Shown in pieces: positions 7,284 to 13,830 of a DNA stretch of 64,000 nucleotides. Source of the stretch: Candidatus Deferrimicrobiaceae bacterium (GTDB lineage: Bacteria; Desulfobacterota; Deferrimicrobia; Deferrimicrobiales; Deferrimicrobiaceae). How positions within the stretch are numbered: the first letter of the stretch is position 1; each line of letters starts with the position of its first letter. The stretch lies in the NCBI GenBank assembly GCA_036504035.1, contig DASXVV010000009.1, positions 124,001 through 188,000 of the forward strand, in the 5' to 3' direction. Both the position numbers and the translations under genes were made by a program. Under the pieces are notes generated by a model. That model was given only the letters and a program-made list of their open reading frames with translations. It was not told the DNA's origin and did not search any database.

Positions 7284-8734
7284 GCCCGCGGCGCCCCGTC
7301 CCGCGGGAGACGCGCGCGGAGGGCGGTTCCGCCGCCGTGCGCCGCCCCGATCTCGAGCGTCCCGCCAAAATGATGAAGCCGCTCGCGCATGCCGATCAGC
7401 CCGAGCGACGCGGGATCGCAGATCTTTTCGGCAGGGATCCCGATGCCGTCGTCCCGGACCGTCAGCGTGACGGCGCGCTTCGTCTCGGCAAGGCGCACGG
7501 AAACCCGCGTCGCGCGGGCGTGCAGCCCGATGTTGGCCAGCGCCTCCCGGAATATCCTGAACAGGGCGGTCGACTGCCCCTGGTCGAGGACGATGTCGCG
7601 CGGGGAGACCAGCGTCTTGCAGGCGATTCCGCACTTCCGCTGGAACTCGCCGGCCTGCCATTCGATCGCCGGCCCGAGGCCGAGATCGTCGAGCATGACA
7701 GGTCGCAGTTCGGTCGAGATCCGCTTCACCGTCCCGATGGTCGAATCGATCAACGCCAGCATGTCCGTCAACCGCTCCCGAAGAAACGGGTGCGCACCGC
7801 CGAGGTTGTCCGAAACCCAGGACGTGTCCAGCCGAAGCCCCATCAGCCCCTGCCCCAGGATGTCGTGGATCTCCCGCGCGATCCGTTTCCGCTCGGCCTC
7901 GACGGCTTCCTGGATGTGCGTGGAGAGCTTGCGAAGCTGGTCGAGCGACTGCCTTAACGCCTGCTCCGCCCGCTTGCGCGCCTCGATCTCCTCGACCACC
8001 ACGACGAGGTAGTTCACCCGCCCGCCCGCCGCCGACCGGACCGCGCTGGTGATCCGGTTGACCCAGACCACGCGCCCGTCCTTGCGCACGTACCGTTTTT
8101 CGTTGGACACCGTGTCGACCTCGCCGCGGAATATCCGCCGGGACACCGCCAGGTCGTTCGCCAGGTCGTCCGGATGCGTGATCTCCTGGAAGGTCATCCC
8201 GAGCAACTCGTCGGCCGTGTAGCCGGTGATCTCGCAGTAGCGCGGGTTCGCCTTCAGGAAGCGCCCCCCCGGGGCGATGTGGACGATGCCTGCCGCCGCG
8301 AAGCGGAAGGTGTCCTCGAACTGCCGCTCGCTGTCGCGCAGCGACCTCTCCATCCGGCGGTGCTCCGTGACGTCGAAGGCATAGTGCAGGTAGAGTTCCC
8401 CGTCCAGCGGTGCCCAGCAGGCGTCCTCAACCCGTTCATCGATTTCGATGGTCCGCTTTTGCGGCTCGCCCGACGCCCAGAGCTCCGGAGCCCGGCACCA
8501 GGGGCACGGGCTCGCGCGCTTGCGCCATCCCGCGTAGCAGGTCAGCCCGGGCTCGGCTCCCACGCGCATGGCCGTCCTGTTTGCGGCGACGATCTCGCGG
8601 CTTCCGGGGCGGATCAGCAGTGCCGGGCACGGCAGGTTGTCGAGGAGGATCCGGTCGAGGCGAAAAACCTCCGAACGGCGTCGGTCCGACGCGCGGCGTT
8701 CGACCATCCGGGTAGGGACATGCTTCCTGCTCAT
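7280..8734 (-). CDS. PAS-domain sensor histidine kinase of the NarX/DegS type
   Basis: A 484-residue cytosolic kinase with no membrane segments. An N-terminal PAS-like domain contains a Cys-rich loop (LTCYAGWRKRASPCPWC) that could bind a metal or be redox-active; a second PAS domain lies at about 135-255 (EITGYTADELLGM). The HisKA_3 dimerisation domain has the phospho-His motif ERKRIAREIHDILGQGL, and a short HATPase domain ends the protein (DDGIGIP, GLIGMRERLHHFGG). It pairs with the downstream NarL-type regulator. Start choice is uncertain: ATG 8734 follows directly after a TATAAT box (8735-8740), which would make a leaderless message; a TTG at 8746 or an ATG at 8707 are alternatives. Confidence 0.88.
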   Translation of the reverse strand: MSRKHVPTRMVERRASDRRRSEVFRLDRILLDNLPCPALLIRPGSREIVAANRTAMRVGAEPGLTCYAGWRKRASPCPWCRAPELWASGEPQKRTIEIDERVEDACWAPLDGELYLHYAFDVTEHRRMERSLRDSERQFEDTFRFAAAGIVHIAPGGRFLKANPRYCEITGYTADELLGMTFQEITHPDDLANDLAVSRRIFRGEVDTVSNEKRYVRKDGRVVWVNRITSAVRSAAGGRVNYLVVVVEEIEARKRAEQALRQSLDQLRKLSTHIQEAVEAERKRIAREIHDILGQGLMGLRLDTSWVSDNLGGAHPFLRERLTDMLALIDSTIGTVKRISTELRPVMLDDLGLGPAIEWQAGEFQRKCGIACKTLVSPRDIVLDQGQSTALFRIFREALANIGLHARATRVSVRLAETKRAVTLTVRDDGIGIPAEKICDPASLGLIGMRERLHHFGGTLEIGAAHGGGTALRARLPRDGAPRA

Positions 8735-8797
8735 ATTATAAAACAACGTATCACGTTTTCGGCCGCAAGCAAGCGGGACTTTCCAGAAGCGACCCGC

Positions 8798-8836
8798 TTG
8801 ACTTCATTACCCGGTATGTATATTTTTATACATACC
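8798..8836 (+). promoter_or_regulatory. Promoter and palindromic operator of the LexA/PolB operon
   Basis: TTGACT (8798-8803) and TATTTT (8821-8826) are separated by exactly 17 bases and form a credible sigma-70 promoter. Superimposed on it is a perfect inverted repeat at 8813-8836: arms GGTATGTATA and TATACATACC around a TTTT centre. It covers the spacer, the -10 box and the expected transcription start. The last base of the right arm touches the ATG of the LexA-like gene, so there is no room for a Shine-Dalgarno site. The obvious reading is an SOS-type operator for autoregulation by that repressor. No second copy was noticed in the window. Confidence 0.75.
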
Positions 8837-9448
8837 ATGACGATGCCGCTCACCCCCCAGCAACAGCATGTCCTGTCGTTCATCCACGACTTCATGGCAC
8901 GCAACCGCTTCGCCCCGACGGCCCAGGAGATCGCCGAGCGGTTCGGCATCGCCGTCAAGAACGGCTATTACTACCTCGACCTGCTCGAGCGCAAGGGACA
9001 CATCCGCCGCACGCCCAACCGGCACCGGCAGATCGCGTTTCCGGGCGCCGGCGCGCCCTCTCTCCCCGTCCGGGTCCCGGTGCTGGGCAGCGTTCCCGCC
9101 GGCAGCCCGCGCGAGGCGATCGAGCTCGTGCAGGAAGAGCTTCTGTTCGACGCCTCGTTGGCCGGCGACGGCGACGTGTTCTCGCTGCGCGTCGCGGGCG
9201 ACAGCATGACCGGCGACCACATCGCCGACGGCGACTACGTGCTGGTGCACTGCCAGCCCGATGCCGCCGACGGCGACATCGTGGTCGCCGTGCTCTCGGG
9301 CGACGCCACCGTCAAGCGGCTGCGCCGGCAGGGCGGCGCCATCGTGCTCGAACCGTCCAACCCCGCCTACCCGCCCATCGCCGTGCCCGCCGACGCGTCG
9401 TCCTTCCGCATCGCCGGCAAGGTGGTCGGCGTCTACCGCAAGCTGTGA
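8837..9448 (+). CDS. LexA-like autocleaving SOS repressor
   Basis: A 203-residue LexA/S24-family protein with all functional parts. The N-terminal winged helix (about 4-68) has the LexA layout TPQQQHVLSFIHDFM and APTAQEIAERFGI. The self-cleavage site is Ala88-Gly89 in VPAGSP, and the catalytic dyad is Ser123 in AGDSMTG and Lys160 in ATVKRL. On DNA damage, RecA filaments would trigger cleavage and derepress the operon. ATG 8837 abuts the operator; a second ATG is at 8843. Its stop overlaps the next start (ATGATG-type junction at 9445-9448). It is probably a cassette-specific second LexA rather than the genome's global one, but the window cannot show that. Confidence 0.88.
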   Translation: MTMPLTPQQQHVLSFIHDFMARNRFAPTAQEIAERFGIAVKNGYYYLDLLERKGHIRRTPNRHRQIAFPGAGAPSLPVRVPVLGSVPAGSPREAIELVQEELLFDASLAGDGDVFSLRVAGDSMTGDHIADGDYVLVHCQPDAADGDIVVAVLSGDATVKRLRRQGGAIVLEPSNPAYPPIAVPADASSFRIAGKVVGVYRKL

Positions 9449-10068
9449 TGCGCGCCGCGCCGCTCGACCTCTACGATGCCTCCGCCCTTTGCCTGGCGCC
9501 GCCGCCGGGCCGCATGGCGGGCATCTTCGGCGAAGACGCCTGTGCGCTCGCGCTGCGGGCGCTCGCGGCCCCGCTGCTCGCGGGCGAAACCGTGGTGGCC
9601 GTCGACGCCGGAAACCGGTTCGACCCCTATGCCATCAGCCGGTCGGCTTCCGCCCTCGGCGGCGATGCCCGGGCGGCGCTTTCCCGCATCCGTCTGTCGC
9701 GCGCCTTCACCTGCCACCAGCTCGAGCGGCTGCTGTCCGAGCGTCTCGCCCCCGAGCTGTCGCGCCGCCGGGCGCGGCTGGCGCTGGTGCTCGGCCTGCA
9801 CGAGTCCTTTCGCGACGCCGACGTCCCCTATCGCGAGGCCTGCGCCCTCTTCCGCAAGAGCGTCGCCGCCCTCCGGAAGATCGCGACCTCCGGCGTGCGC
9901 GTGGTGCTGGCAAGCCATCCGGCGTCCGGCGACCGGGCCGGCTTCTTCATGCACCTCGCGCGGGAAGCGCGCCCGATGCTGCTCGTCCGGCGCGAGGGCG
10001 GTGCGTGGGGCGGCACGCTTTGGCTCGACGAAAAGCGCGCGCCCATCCCGCTTCTGTCAGGGAAGTAG
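9445..10068 (+). CDS. RecA-fold protein lacking a Walker A motif (ImuA/SulA-like position)
   Basis: A 207-residue protein translated from an ATG that overlaps the lexA-like stop. The layout resembles a RecA/RadA core: a strand-loop-helix where the P-loop should be (MAGIFGEDACALALRALAA), a second strand VVAVDAGNRFDPYAI, a hydrophobic Walker-B-like strand ARLALVLGL followed by HESF, and a later strand VRVVLASHP. However the P-loop has no GK[ST], so ATP hydrolysis is unlikely. In known SOS mutasome cassettes the second gene encodes ImuA, a RecA-like protein that recruits the polymerase, and SulA is a related Walker-less protein. By analogy this could be a recruitment or filament-binding factor. 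The fold assignment is inference from pattern only. Confidence 0.6.
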   Translation: MMRAAPLDLYDASALCLAPPPGRMAGIFGEDACALALRALAAPLLAGETVVAVDAGNRFDPYAISRSASALGGDARAALSRIRLSRAFTCHQLERLLSERLAPELSRRRARLALVLGLHESFRDADVPYREACALFRKSVAALRKIATSGVRVVLASHPASGDRAGFFMHLAREARPMLLVRREGGAWGGTLWLDEKRAPIPLLSGK

Positions 10069-10075
10069 CAAAGCC

Positions 10076-10369
10076 GTGGGCCGCACCGTCCTTCCTTTCA
10101 CCCAGACGCTCCACCAGGAAGAAGCGTCGTGGAAGGAATTCCGCCGGGCGCTTCGCAAGGAAGACCGCGAGTTGTTCGACGCCCTGTTTTCGGATGCCCG
10201 CTACCACACCACCGCCTGCGCCTGCTCGGGGCGCCCGGTGCCGTTCGAGGCGGTACTGATGAGCATCCTCCTCGAAGCGCGGCGCGCCGTACGCGACCTC
10301 TCGCTGCGGGTCGCCGCGCTCGAGGCCGCCGCCGGCAGCCGGCCCGACCCGTGCGCAACCGAACGCTGA
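10076..10369 (+). CDS. Small conserved-looking protein of the LexA/PolB cassette
   Basis: A 97-residue protein beginning at GTG 10076, 7 bases after the RecA-like gene, with a weak GGGAAG ribosome binding site. It is rich in charged residues and predicted mostly helical: ASWKEFRRALRKEDRELFDALF, then PFEAVLMSILLEARRAVRDLS and a final short coiled-coil-like heptad segment. A Cys pair occurs in TTACACSG. I recognise no enzymatic motif. Its 3' end overlaps the polymerase gene by 19 bases, so it is co-translated with it and is a good candidate for a polymerase accessory or adaptor subunit. Function is inferred from position only. Confidence 0.7.
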   Translation: MGRTVLPFTQTLHQEEASWKEFRRALRKEDRELFDALFSDARYHTTACACSGRPVPFEAVLMSILLEARRAVRDLSLRVAALEAAAGSRPDPCATER

Positions 10370-12588
10370 CCGGCTGGCTGCTCGACCTCGTCGCGCGGCC
10401 CGCGTCCGTCGACCTCGTCTTCCGCACCGACGGCGGCGCGACGCACGCCCTGTCCGCCCCCTTCCTGCCGTCGTTCGTCGTGGCCGGGCGCGACGTCCGG
10501 CGCGAGGCGGTGCTGGCGGCCGCGCGCGCGTGGGGCTGTCGCGTGGGGCGCGGCGAGGGCACCGAGATCTTCTCGGGGCAGCCGATTCCCGCCTGGCGCC
10601 TCCGCGTCCCGGCCTCGGGCCTGTTTGCCCGCATCGTCCGGATGGCCGAGGCCGAGTTCACCCCCGAGGCGCTCTTCAACGCCGACATCGCGCCCGAGCA
10701 GCAGTTCGCCTATGCCACCGGCCTGTATCCGCTGGCGCGCGCCCGCGTCACGATCGACGCCGACGGCGCCGTCTGCGGCCATGAGCTGCTCGACGACCCG
10801 TGGGATGTCGATGCGCCGCTGCCCGAGCTGACGGTGGCGACGCTGCGGGTCGACGGCCGCGGCCATCCGGCGCACGGCCAAGCCCGGCCGCTGCTGTTCT
10901 CCTTCGACGGCCGCACCGACCTGTTCGAGTGGACCGACGGCGCCGGCCTGCTGCACGACCTGTCGCGCCGGCTGCGCGAGGCCGACCCCGACCTGCTCGT
11001 CACCGAGTACGGCGACGACCACCTCGTGCCATCGCTGCACGCACTGGCCGAGCGCTGCCGCGTCCCCTTCTCGCTCGACCGCCCGCTCTCCCGAGCCGGG
11101 GGAGGCGACGGCGCGCGCCGCCCTCTTCCCCCCCGCTCCTACATGTCCTACGGCAAGGTCGTCTACCGCGCGGCCACCCACACCGCCTTCGGCCGCTGGC
11201 ACGTCGACGCCCGCAACTCGTTCCTGTTCGGCGACACGGGGCTGCCCGGGCTCATCGAGCTGTCGCGCCTGTCGGGCATCCCGCTCCAGCGGCTCGCGCG
11301 CTCCTCGCCCGGCACCGCCATCTCGGCGATGGAGGTCGCGCTCGCGATGTCGCGCGGCGTGCTCGTCCCGTTCAAGAAGCGCGAGCCCGAAGAATTCAAG
11401 ACGGGGCTGGCGCTGGTCGAGACCGATAAAGGGGGGCTGACCTACCTGCCGCGCCCGGGCGTCCGAACCAACGTGGCCGAGCTCGATTTCGCCTCGATGT
11501 ACCCGTCGCTGATGAACCGCTACAACATCTCGCCCGAGACGATCAACTGCGACTGCTGCGATCCGGGGCTGCCCGTGCCCGGCATCGGCGCCCACACCTG
11601 CACGCGGCGCCGCGGCATCATCCCCGACACGCTGGCGCCGATTCTAGAGAAACGGCGGCAGCTCAAAATCCGGCAGAAGGCGGCCGCGACGCCCGACGAG
11701 AAAGAGCCGTTCCGCCGCCGCCAAACGGCGCTCAAGTGGCTGCTCGTCGTCTCGTTCGGCTTCCTCGGCTACCGCAACGCCCGCTTCGGCCGCATCGAGG
11801 CGCACGAGGCGGTCACGGCCTGGGGACGCGAAAAGCTGCTGATGGCGAAGGAGACCGCCGAGCGCAGCGGCTATTCCTTCCTCCACGGGCTGACCGACGC
11901 GATCTGGGTCACACGGGACGGCGCTGCCGGGGACGACTACCTGGCGCTGGGCGACGACATCACCCGGGAGACGGAGATGCCGATCGCGCTCGAGGGAGTC
12001 TACGACTGGATCGCCTTCCTGCCGTCTCGGCAAAATCCGGCAGTCGCCGTGCCGAACCGCTTCGTCGGCGCGTTCCGCCACGGCGAGATGAAGGTGCGCG
12101 GCATCGCGCTTCGCCGTTCCGATACGTCGCCTTTCGTCGCCGCGCTGCAGCGGTCGATGCTCGACGCGATGGGCGGCGCGCACGATCTCGCGGCCTTGCG
12201 GGGCTTGCGGCCCGCGCTCGAAGCGATGGTCGAGGAAGCGGTGCGCGCGCTGCGCGACGGCCGCGTGCAGCCCGAGGCACTGGCCATCGCGCGGCGGCTC
12301 TCGAAGGCGCCCGACCAGTACGTCGCCAATACGGCGGCGGCGTCGGTCACGCGCGAATTGTGCGGGAGGGGGGTGGCGCTGCAGCCGGGAGCAAAGATCC
12401 GCTACCTGCTGGTCGCCGAAGGAGGGAAGCCGGGCAGAGTGCGACGCCCGGCCAGGCCTGCATCGCTTCCCGGCGGCCGCGCCATGGGCTTCCTCGACGG
12501 CAGCGAGTCGCCCGACCTCGACAAGTACGAGGAACTGCTGCGCGAAGCGGGGGAAGAGCTTCTCTGGATCACGCGGAACGCCCGCTAA
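10351..12588 (+). CDS. Divergent family B DNA polymerase, proofreading motifs lost
   Basis: A 745-residue PolB starting at GTG 10351 inside the preceding gene. Motif A is ELDFASMYPSLMNRYNIS with catalytic Asp379; motif B is around Lys462 (ALKWLLVVSFGFLGY, where family members usually have K-x3-NS-x-YG); motif C is HGLTDAIWV with Asp516, where the usual DTD has become LTD. The two metal-binding aspartates are therefore kept. In the N-terminal half the ExoI DxE, ExoII NxxxFD and ExoIII YxxxD signatures are absent, so 3'-5' proofreading should be lost. A Cys cluster (NCDCC, then HTC) follows motif A. Under LexA-type control this would be a damage-induced, possibly translesion polymerase. It is distinct from the housekeeping polA at 21658-24267. 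Confidence 0.88.
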   Translation: MRNRTLTGWLLDLVARPASVDLVFRTDGGATHALSAPFLPSFVVAGRDVRREAVLAAARAWGCRVGRGEGTEIFSGQPIPAWRLRVPASGLFARIVRMAEAEFTPEALFNADIAPEQQFAYATGLYPLARARVTIDADGAVCGHELLDDPWDVDAPLPELTVATLRVDGRGHPAHGQARPLLFSFDGRTDLFEWTDGAGLLHDLSRRLREADPDLLVTEYGDDHLVPSLHALAERCRVPFSLDRPLSRAGGGDGARRPLPPRSYMSYGKVVYRAATHTAFGRWHVDARNSFLFGDTGLPGLIELSRLSGIPLQRLARSSPGTAISAMEVALAMSRGVLVPFKKREPEEFKTGLALVETDKGGLTYLPRPGVRTNVAELDFASMYPSLMNRYNISPETINCDCCDPGLPVPGIGAHTCTRRRGIIPDTLAPILEKRRQLKIRQKAAATPDEKEPFRRRQTALKWLLVVSFGFLGYRNARFGRIEAHEAVTAWGREKLLMAKETAERSGYSFLHGLTDAIWVTRDGAAGDDYLALGDDITRETEMPIALEGVYDWIAFLPSRQNPAVAVPNRFVGAFRHGEMKVRGIALRRSDTSPFVAALQRSMLDAMGGAHDLAALRGLRPALEAMVEEAVRALRDGRVQPEALAIARRLSKAPDQYVANTAAASVTRELCGRGVALQPGAKIRYLLVAEGGKPGRVRRPARPASLPGGRAMGFLDGSESPDLDKYEELLREAGEELLWITRNAR

Positions 12589-12902
12589 TCCAGGTCGATG
12601 TCCTTCACCGGCTTCTCGACCGGCGCGTCCTTGGCCTTCTCCATGAACGTCTTGAACAACTTCTCCATCGCCGCCCCGCGCCCCTTTTCGGCCTCGACGC
12701 TCTGCCGGTACTTGTCCTCAATGCGGGACGCCTCCTCGGCCAGCACGCGCTCCGCTTCCTTCAATTCGGTCGCCTTCCGCGCGGCGCTTGCCGGATCGAC
12801 TTTCTCGACCACGACACCGCGCACGGTATCGACGACCAGCTGCGCCCCGCAACAGGGGCAGTCGACCTTGAGCACGGATCTCTCTTCCAAGGAATCGGAC
12901 AT
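12585..12902 (-). CDS. Small zinc-ribbon/coiled-coil protein
   Basis: A 105-residue protein. The ATG at 12902 is preferred because GGAGGG lies seven bases upstream; an in-frame ATG at 12929 gives 114 residues. The N-terminus has one CPCC pair (VDCPCCGAQLVVD), half of a zinc ribbon, followed by a long Glu/Lys/Arg-rich helix at about 45-95 and an acidic end. A complete ribbon might form by dimerisation. The stop overlaps the convergent polymerase stop by four bases. I do not recognise a function. It has its own promoter region toward the tRNA. Confidence 0.65.
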   Translation of the reverse strand: MSDSLEERSVLKVDCPCCGAQLVVDTVRGVVVEKVDPASAARKATELKEAERVLAEEASRIEDKYRQSVEAEKGRGAAMEKLFKTFMEKAKDAPVEKPVKDIDLD

Positions 12903-12951
12903 GCCATTCCCTCCGTCGGCCTGGTTCATGCGTTTATTCTAGCTGAGCCGG

Positions 12952-13106: not shown

Positions 13107-13135
13107 AATCTATTTCGGCACACCCGAAATGTCAA
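13107..13135 (-). promoter_or_regulatory. Sigma-70 promoter of tRNA-Thr with palindromic spacer
   Basis: On the minus strand TTGACA (13130-13135) and TAGATT (13107-13112) are 17 bases apart, a near-consensus promoter that would start transcription about 27 bases before the tRNA. The spacer itself is an inverted repeat, TTTCGG-GTGTG-CCGAAA. The -35 element overlaps the last codons of the DnaE-like gene. The spacer repeat may be a regulator site or simply a weak hairpin ending the upstream operon. Confidence 0.65.
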
Positions 13136-13815
13136 GCAAGGGAAGGCGCAAGGGCACTTTCCGCCGCACAGCGGGCGGCCTCGAACGCGTCCCGGTAATG
13201 CGCCTTGAGCCAGGCGAGGCGATATCCCTCGGTCGCGAAACCGGCCAGGCGCGTCTCGGGGAGGGTAAATGCGCCCGTGCGCCGCAGGAAGTCGAGCATC
13301 TCCTTCGCCGCCGACCCGGAGATTCCGTTGGCTGAAGCCCCCTCGGAAAAGCGCACAGCAACGGCGAACATCGCCGGTTCGTCGTAGCGGGAATAAGCGC
13401 GGGCGAAACGAACGGCATCATCGGGCGTAAAGCGGGCCACCTCGGTACCGATTCGGGCCAACTGTTCTTCGTACAACGGAAGGCCGTGCGTCTCGGCAAA
13501 GTAAGGCGTAAGCGCGGGAACCTCGCAGTCGGAGCGCTCCCGCCCATGCCGCCGATCGATATAGCGGTCGAGGAGGCCGGCGGTCAACGTCGACATCCGG
13601 TAGAGTGCCTGGAAAGCGACCAGGTGGGCGAAACGGACGGGGTCCAGGCGTCGCAGGTAGTCGAGGGCGTCTTCATGGTCGAAGCGGGGAATCCCTGCGG
13701 TGTCCCCGGCGGAGAAGAGCCGATAGGTCGCGGGATCGTCGAAAGGAATCGCATCGGCGGACAACAGGACGGCACCTTCGGCGGGGAGTCGCCCGATCAC
13801 GCTTTCGATGGACAT
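13132..13815 (-). CDS. Stand-alone fragment of DNA polymerase III alpha (DnaE-like)
   Basis: A 227-residue protein starting at ATG 13815 (TTG 13821 is possible). It matches one continuous stretch of family C polymerase: IPFDDPATYRLFSAGDTAGI corresponds to the DnaE segment ending in GDTxGVFQ; then comes the segment that in DnaE reads ALYRPGPL...DFIDRKHG (here ALYRMSTLTAGLLDRYIDRRHG), the GLPLYEEQ segment (DnaE GVIVYQEQ), and the RLAWLKAHY segment (DnaE YQTAWLKAHYP). The PHP domain, the PDxDxDF catalytic pair, the beta-clamp motif and the OB fold are all missing, so it cannot polymerise on its own. The frame is intact and the spacing to the upstream gene (15 bases) is operon-like, so it may be a domesticated domain rather than debris. 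Confidence 0.65.
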   Translation of the reverse strand: MSIESVIGRLPAEGAVLLSADAIPFDDPATYRLFSAGDTAGIPRFDHEDALDYLRRLDPVRFAHLVAFQALYRMSTLTAGLLDRYIDRRHGRERSDCEVPALTPYFAETHGLPLYEEQLARIGTEVARFTPDDAVRFARAYSRYDEPAMFAVAVRFSEGASANGISGSAAKEMLDFLRRTGAFTLPETRLAGFATEGYRLAWLKAHYRDAFEAARCAAESALAPSLA

Positions 13816-13830
13816 GGGCAAGGGAGAAGC

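Follow-up and report, generated by a model that had tools for sequence, protein, structure and literature searches.

Background

The PolB2 mutasome is a complex (PolB2 + iRadA + PPB2 trimer) that has been modelled by Timinskas et al. 2025 (PMC11791011). In its bacterial form it is characterized by loss of the first Asp of the DxD motif with the second retained, a conserved D(K/R) loop before the palm, a dead exonuclease, an inactive RadA that has no N-terminal domain, a PPB2 protein that carries the MGRT motif (defined in that work) and an enrichment of lexA in the neighbourhood. PPB2 is described there as a helical protein of ~90 amino acids, iRadA-PPB2-PolB2 is the only bacterial gene order reported, and a beta-clamp motif in iRadA or PolB2 is found in just a fraction of PolB2 mutasomes (PMC11791011). 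A predicted operon lexA-iRadA-arCOG07300-PolB2 of Leptospirillum ferriphilum (LFML04_0990-0993) is given in Makarova et al. 2014 (PMC4104785). The archaeal member Dpo2 (PolB2) of Sulfolobus is damage-inducible and exonuclease-free; it is an efficient extender of mismatched ends and accounts for targeted mutagenesis (PMC8764526, PMC7390963). Here we analyse a lexA-iRadA-PPB2-polB2 operon found at positions 8798-12588 of a 64,000-nucleotide stretch (hereafter the window) of the genome of a Candidatus Deferrimicrobiaceae bacterium.

Judged by its sequence, this operon is a bacterial PolB2 mutasome operon: the kind of system is established, the lineage is new. The four-gene set is not new, because the lexA-headed form and the hallmarks of the PolB2 mutasome have already been published (PMC4104785, PMC11791011). 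What appears to be new is the regulation: the LexA of the cassette is the only LexA of its genome, and its regulon apparently comprises one operon.

Results

Organization of the operon

The gene identities, the states of the active sites, the association of the genes, the conserved operator, the single LexA and the single genomic operator were established by direct observation, and it is very probable that the locus is a LexA-switched bacterial PolB2 mutasome operon providing a damage-inducible translesion or extender polymerase. The four co-directional genes span 8837/8843-12588, which agrees with the tightly packed operon proposed in the first-pass annotation, and position 8798, where the region originally noted begins, is the start of the -35 box. 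The features are (window coordinates; aa, amino acids; bp, base pairs):

8798..8826, + strand: predicted sigma-70-type promoter, TTGACT 8798-8803, 17-bp spacer, TATTTT 8821-8826; consensus match only
8813..8836, no strand: putative LexA operator, an inverted repeat that relatives keep before lexA; present once in the genome
8837..9448, + strand: lexA, 203 aa from ATG 8837 or 201 aa from ATG 8843; LexA DNA-binding domain and S24 peptidase
9448..10068, + strand: iRadA, 206 aa; RadA/Rad51 family, lacking both Walker A and the RadA N-terminal domain; alternative start GTG 9445
10076..10369, + strand: PPB2 (arCOG07300-like), 97 aa, GTG start, N-terminus (M)GRT
10351..12588, + strand: polB2, 745 aa, GTG start; B-family DNA polymerase

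The gene order is lexA-iRadA-PPB2-polB2. If iRadA starts at GTG 9445 it overlaps lexA by 4 bases, and if it starts at ATG 9448, which is more likely, by 1 base; iRadA and PPB2 are separated by 7 bases, and PPB2 and polB2 overlap by 19 bases when GTG 10351 is used. Both overlaps noted earlier, 4 and 19 bases, therefore hold given the GTG starts 9445 and 10351.

LexA and its putative operator

The first gene product matches the LexA profile TIGR00498 with 169.8 bits (cut-off 110.95), and its DNA-binding domain, S24 peptidase, cleavage Ala-Gly and catalytic Ser and Lys are all present. The cleavage site A88-G89 and the catalytic S123 and K160 named in the first-pass annotation (counted from ATG 8837) correspond to A86-G87, S121 and K158 counted from ATG 8843, and are intact. 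A genome search returned one copy of LexA; the only other S24 protein (G000:C8:194674) was rejected as a second LexA because it has an XRE-type helix-turn-helix and, by eye, Ala in place of the catalytic Ser.

The palindrome at 8813-8836, GGTATGTATA-TTTT-TATACATACC, is 24 bp long: two 10-bp arms that form a perfect inverted repeat flank a centre of 4 bp. It spans the -10 box and the predicted transcription start, its last base adjoins the first lexA ATG, and it is thus embedded in the promoter, as had been noted. The promoter TTGACT-17-TATTTT is the sole one found in 8600-9000 (0.1 expected). No second AT-rich inverted repeat in the window is of such quality, and 40 first-order Markov simulations gave 0; the 20-bp core of the palindrome, searched with up to 3 mismatches, has one match in the window and 0/100 in shuffles. 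In 15 loci the inverted repeat is conserved upstream of lexA, with the consensus TATGTATGTTAACATACATA and a mean of 1.51 bits per column vs 0.39 and 0.45 in the flanks, and across the family only a few bases separate it from the start of lexA. The outer arms of the window copy, TATGTATATTTTTATACATA, match this consensus.

Two side observations concern the same region. The lexA message (window 8813-8843) is probably leaderless or nearly so, because the operator ends at the first ATG and the predicted transcription start lies a few bases away; this tight spacing is common to the family. Besides, two more distant relatives with a PolB2 cassette (loci L063 and L064) lack the family operator and share another motif, ACAAATGTATRGTAT, upstream of lexA.

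Properties of iRadA, PPB2 and PolB2

A single iRadA sequence gives no confident match in Pfam or NCBIfam; a profile built from 18 sequences matches archaeal RadA with E 3.8e-12, and the AlphaFold model (mean predicted local distance difference test score 93.4) retrieves Dmc1, RadA and Rad51 in Foldseek, with a best E of 6.8e-12. In the alignment with RadA the GKT of Walker A is replaced, and therefore iRadA should not hydrolyse ATP. The MGRT N-terminus is found in 20 of 21 PPB2 homologues, and the structure model of PPB2 is all-helical.

PolB2 matches the B-family domain PF00136 and an NCBIfam type-B polymerase entry, and its nearest solved structures are those of archaeal PolB. In the exonuclease domain ExoI reads DGR instead of DxE, the Asp of ExoII is replaced by Leu and the Tyr of ExoIII is lost, which leaves only the ExoIII Asp. 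An assignment to the E. coli-type DNA polymerase II was rejected on the basis of the profile score (PRK05762, 62.6 bits vs a cut-off of 570) and of these lost residues. In the polymerase domain, motif A (DFASMYPS) is intact and motif B is kept too, while motif C is LTD and not DTD, so that DxD has lost its first Asp; in all homologues that cover the motif it reads I/L, then T/V, then D. The two Asp residues regarded earlier as catalytic, Asp379 and Asp516 (counting the GTG), are D378 and D515 in P0004 and proved invariant across 18 homologues. Motif A is preceded by a TDKGG loop (P0004 357-361), in which D358 is invariant and K359 nearly invariant.

Co-occurrence, rearrangement and loss in relatives

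Among 59 genomes, comprising the genome of the window and its relatives, PPB2 was found in 21 (a second, marginal match in genome G004 was disregarded). All 21 have PolB2, and PPB2 was found in none of the genomes without PolB2. The lone genome with PolB2 and without PPB2 (G023) is 74% complete and has a contig end beside polB2. The lexA gene shares a contig with another cassette gene in 20/21 genomes, the exception being G007, in which the pieces are on different contigs. Co-occurrence of the families was a check set beforehand, and with this outcome the function proposed in the first-pass annotation, a LexA-controlled PolB-based mutasome, is well supported.

The cassette order is broken in some relatives, and the pieces retain operators. 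In G024 (L060) polB2 is divergent and one operator lies between the lexA and polB2 units. G011 (L145), G010 (L146) and G004 (L147) carry split cassettes: in G011 one operator precedes lexA-polB2 and a second precedes iRadA-PPB2, which lies ~9 kilobases away on the opposite strand; in G010 lexA, iRadA and polB2 each have one (three in total); and in G004 lexA and polB2 do (two). That separated pieces keep their own operator is independent evidence that this site is important to the cassette and is probably read by the associated LexA.

Loss of the cassette is represented by G005 (L143 5340-5987), which has no PolB2 and no PPB2 and retains an orphan lexA, in which the catalytic Ser is changed to Arg (GDRM), with the operator kept. 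In G015 (L144 120-2488) the cassette has decayed: polB2 has suffered a large deletion, and the contig carries neither iRadA nor PPB2 and retains two operators. The decayed cassette lies next to a gene that by eye looks like SRAP (MCGRF start); SRAP has been reported as enriched near polB2. In G012 (L148 1-5527), a member of the same family without PolB2, the cassette is lexA-imuA-imuB-dnaE2 and the box, TACTGTATATACATACAGTA, is of the E. coli type; its DnaE2 was identified through NCBIfam, its ImuA and ImuB by inspection of the sequence. The LexA of G012 belongs to a subfamily different from that of the PolB2-cassette LexA, and the operators differ too. The PolB2 and imuA-imuB-dnaE2 mutasomes thus look like alternatives within one family, which supports the functional analogy between them suggested earlier.

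Size of the regulon

When searched with 16 specified bases and up to 3 mismatches, the operator pattern occurs once in the 3.17-megabase (Mb) assembly. With 14 specified bases and the same tolerance there are 25 genome sites vs 24 for a reversed control pattern, and therefore no genome-wide excess of the operator. The operator is of the type TATGTAT-N6-ATACATA and differs from the known SOS box type CTGT-N8-ACAG, and the region upstream of recA, read directly, contains no family operator; thus neither the box nor the control of recA that define a canonical LexA SOS regulon was found at these sites. In the relatives, off-cassette matches to the consensus fall in unrelated places, mostly in coding sequence, and no repair-gene promoter was seen among the off-cassette matches to the patterns searched in the genome of the window and in a set of 30 genomes. 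These are strict pattern searches, by which degenerate sites may be missed, and most of the relatives are fragmented assemblies.

Outside the operon, the genome encodes one RecA, one Y-family polymerase and one PF07733 gene (a 1176-aa frame), and no second DnaE was found in it; PolB2 is therefore the sole candidate for a multisubunit mutasome among the families searched. Whether the whole LexA response of the family has shrunk to one operon seems to us evenly balanced; in such a case its only LexA, acting through a non-canonical operator, would be a switch private to the archaeal-derived PolB2 mutasome, following the cassette through its splits and losing the protease Ser upon cassette loss.

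Neighbouring genes

Directly downstream of polB2 and convergent with it lies a gene for a 114-aa protein that contains a CPCC motif and has no match in Pfam (window 12588-12929, - strand). Further on, 13132-13821 (- strand) encodes a free-standing 229-aa protein, which is essentially the finger domain of DNA polymerase III alpha (PF17657, E 7.5e-29) and is separate from the full-length DnaE of the genome. The two further genomes of the genus that were examined (G001, G002) each have an intact copy with 56-57% identity; for almost all remaining relatives the best match falls inside a long DnaE-like frame.

Discussion

By analogy with homologues, from which LexA binding, RecA-dependent cleavage, assembly of the complex and extender polymerase activity are all deduced, the operon might work as follows. 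In an undamaged cell a LexA dimer would occupy the 24-bp palindrome over the -10 box and the start site, and keep lexA and the three downstream genes off. Upon damage, RecA filaments formed on single-stranded DNA would trigger self-cleavage of LexA at Ala-Gly and the operon would be transcribed. Together, iRadA, PPB2 and PolB2 would then form a single complex, and its proofreading-deficient polymerase could carry primers with distorted or mismatched ends past lesions, at the cost of mutations.

Several points weigh against this reading. In the literature searched we found no experiments on a bacterial PolB2 operon. The centre of the window operator is ATTTTT vs GTTAAC in the family consensus. 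The fold search with the PPB2 monomer model returned no significant match among solved folds, and thus neither confirms nor excludes the published resemblance of PPB2 to sigma factors. By eye, a canonical beta-clamp motif is not evident at the C-termini of the window iRadA or PolB2. A different role is conceivable, with a catalytically dead PolB2 that is a structural part of a complex for DNA repair or regulation of replication, and a LexA that is merely an autoregulator. The replaced first Asp of DxD (LTD), shared by all bacterial homologues examined, speaks for it, and inactivation of PolB2 was inferred in early papers (Makarova et al. 2014, PMC4104785). However, both palm Asp residues predicted to hold the metals (D378 and D515) and motifs A and B are conserved, and in Sulfolobus a PolB2 that bears this kind of substitution is active as a polymerase (PMC8764526, PMC11791011), so that we find this role highly improbable.

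Nor do we favour, as the ancestry of the locus, the swap proposed in the first-pass annotation, namely an imuA-imuB-dnaE2 cassette in which DnaE2 was replaced by a PolB. Both layouts are indeed headed by LexA and have a RecA-fold protein second, and the imu operon of G012 may be a functional alternative to the PolB2 cassette. However, no relative of ImuB or DnaE2 is encoded in the operon, its second gene matches RadA/Rad51, its third gene is PPB2, and the two cassettes differ in LexA subfamily and operator. Descent is thereby refuted and hardly any weight is left to this variant, whose analogy of function stands; the PolB2 mutasome is a system of its own, derived from archaea. The operon might also be one of many LexA targets in a conventional genome-wide SOS regulon, a reading that differs from the LexA-switched PolB2 operon in regulon size alone. 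It would suit a genome whose only LexA is that of the cassette, and degenerate operators may have escaped notice, the own operator being already off the family consensus. It is nevertheless rather unlikely, considering the single operator in 3.17 Mb, the 25 matches vs 24 in the reversed control, the lack of an operator upstream of recA, the position of the off-cassette matches of relatives in unrelated, mostly coding places, and the absence of the catalytic Ser from the LexA of the cassette-less G005.

In the literature we found, bacterial PolB2 mutasomes are described by genome and structure modelling only. To the LexA-switched PolB2 operon the present locus adds a missing regulatory piece, a precise operator conserved in the family before the cassette and its separated parts, which makes SOS control of bacterial PolB2 a simple question of binding and induction. 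If true, the one-operon regulon would mean a LexA response reduced to mutagenesis alone, with recA outside its control.

Comparison with known systems

The L. ferriphilum operon of Makarova et al. (PMC4104785) comprises the same four families, with lexA in the operon, and differs in lineage. The window shares with the PolB2 mutasome of Timinskas et al. the iRadA-PPB2-PolB2 order, MGRT, the DxD loss, the DK loop, the dead exonuclease and RadA, and lexA; it differs in that no clear clamp motif is seen by eye, and the order is broken in the relatives G024, G011, G010 and G004, in contrast to the single published bacterial order. Sulfolobus Dpo2 belongs to the same polymerase family, likewise has no proofreading and is damage-inducible, but the archaeal neighbourhood is enriched in orc1/cdc6 and not in lexA (PMC11791011). 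Eukaryotic Pol zeta (Rev3) is also a multisubunit B-family extender with a dead exonuclease (compared in PMC11791011), but its accessory subunits are unrelated and the complex is not homologous. The lexA2-imuA-imuB-imuC(dnaE2) operon of Pseudomonas putida is a LexA-headed mutasome operon, controlled by that LexA as a single unit (PMC3901139, PMC5261740), but it encodes C-family and Y-family proteins, not PolB2, and P. putida also carries LexA1, whereas the LexA of the window cassette is the sole LexA of its genome.

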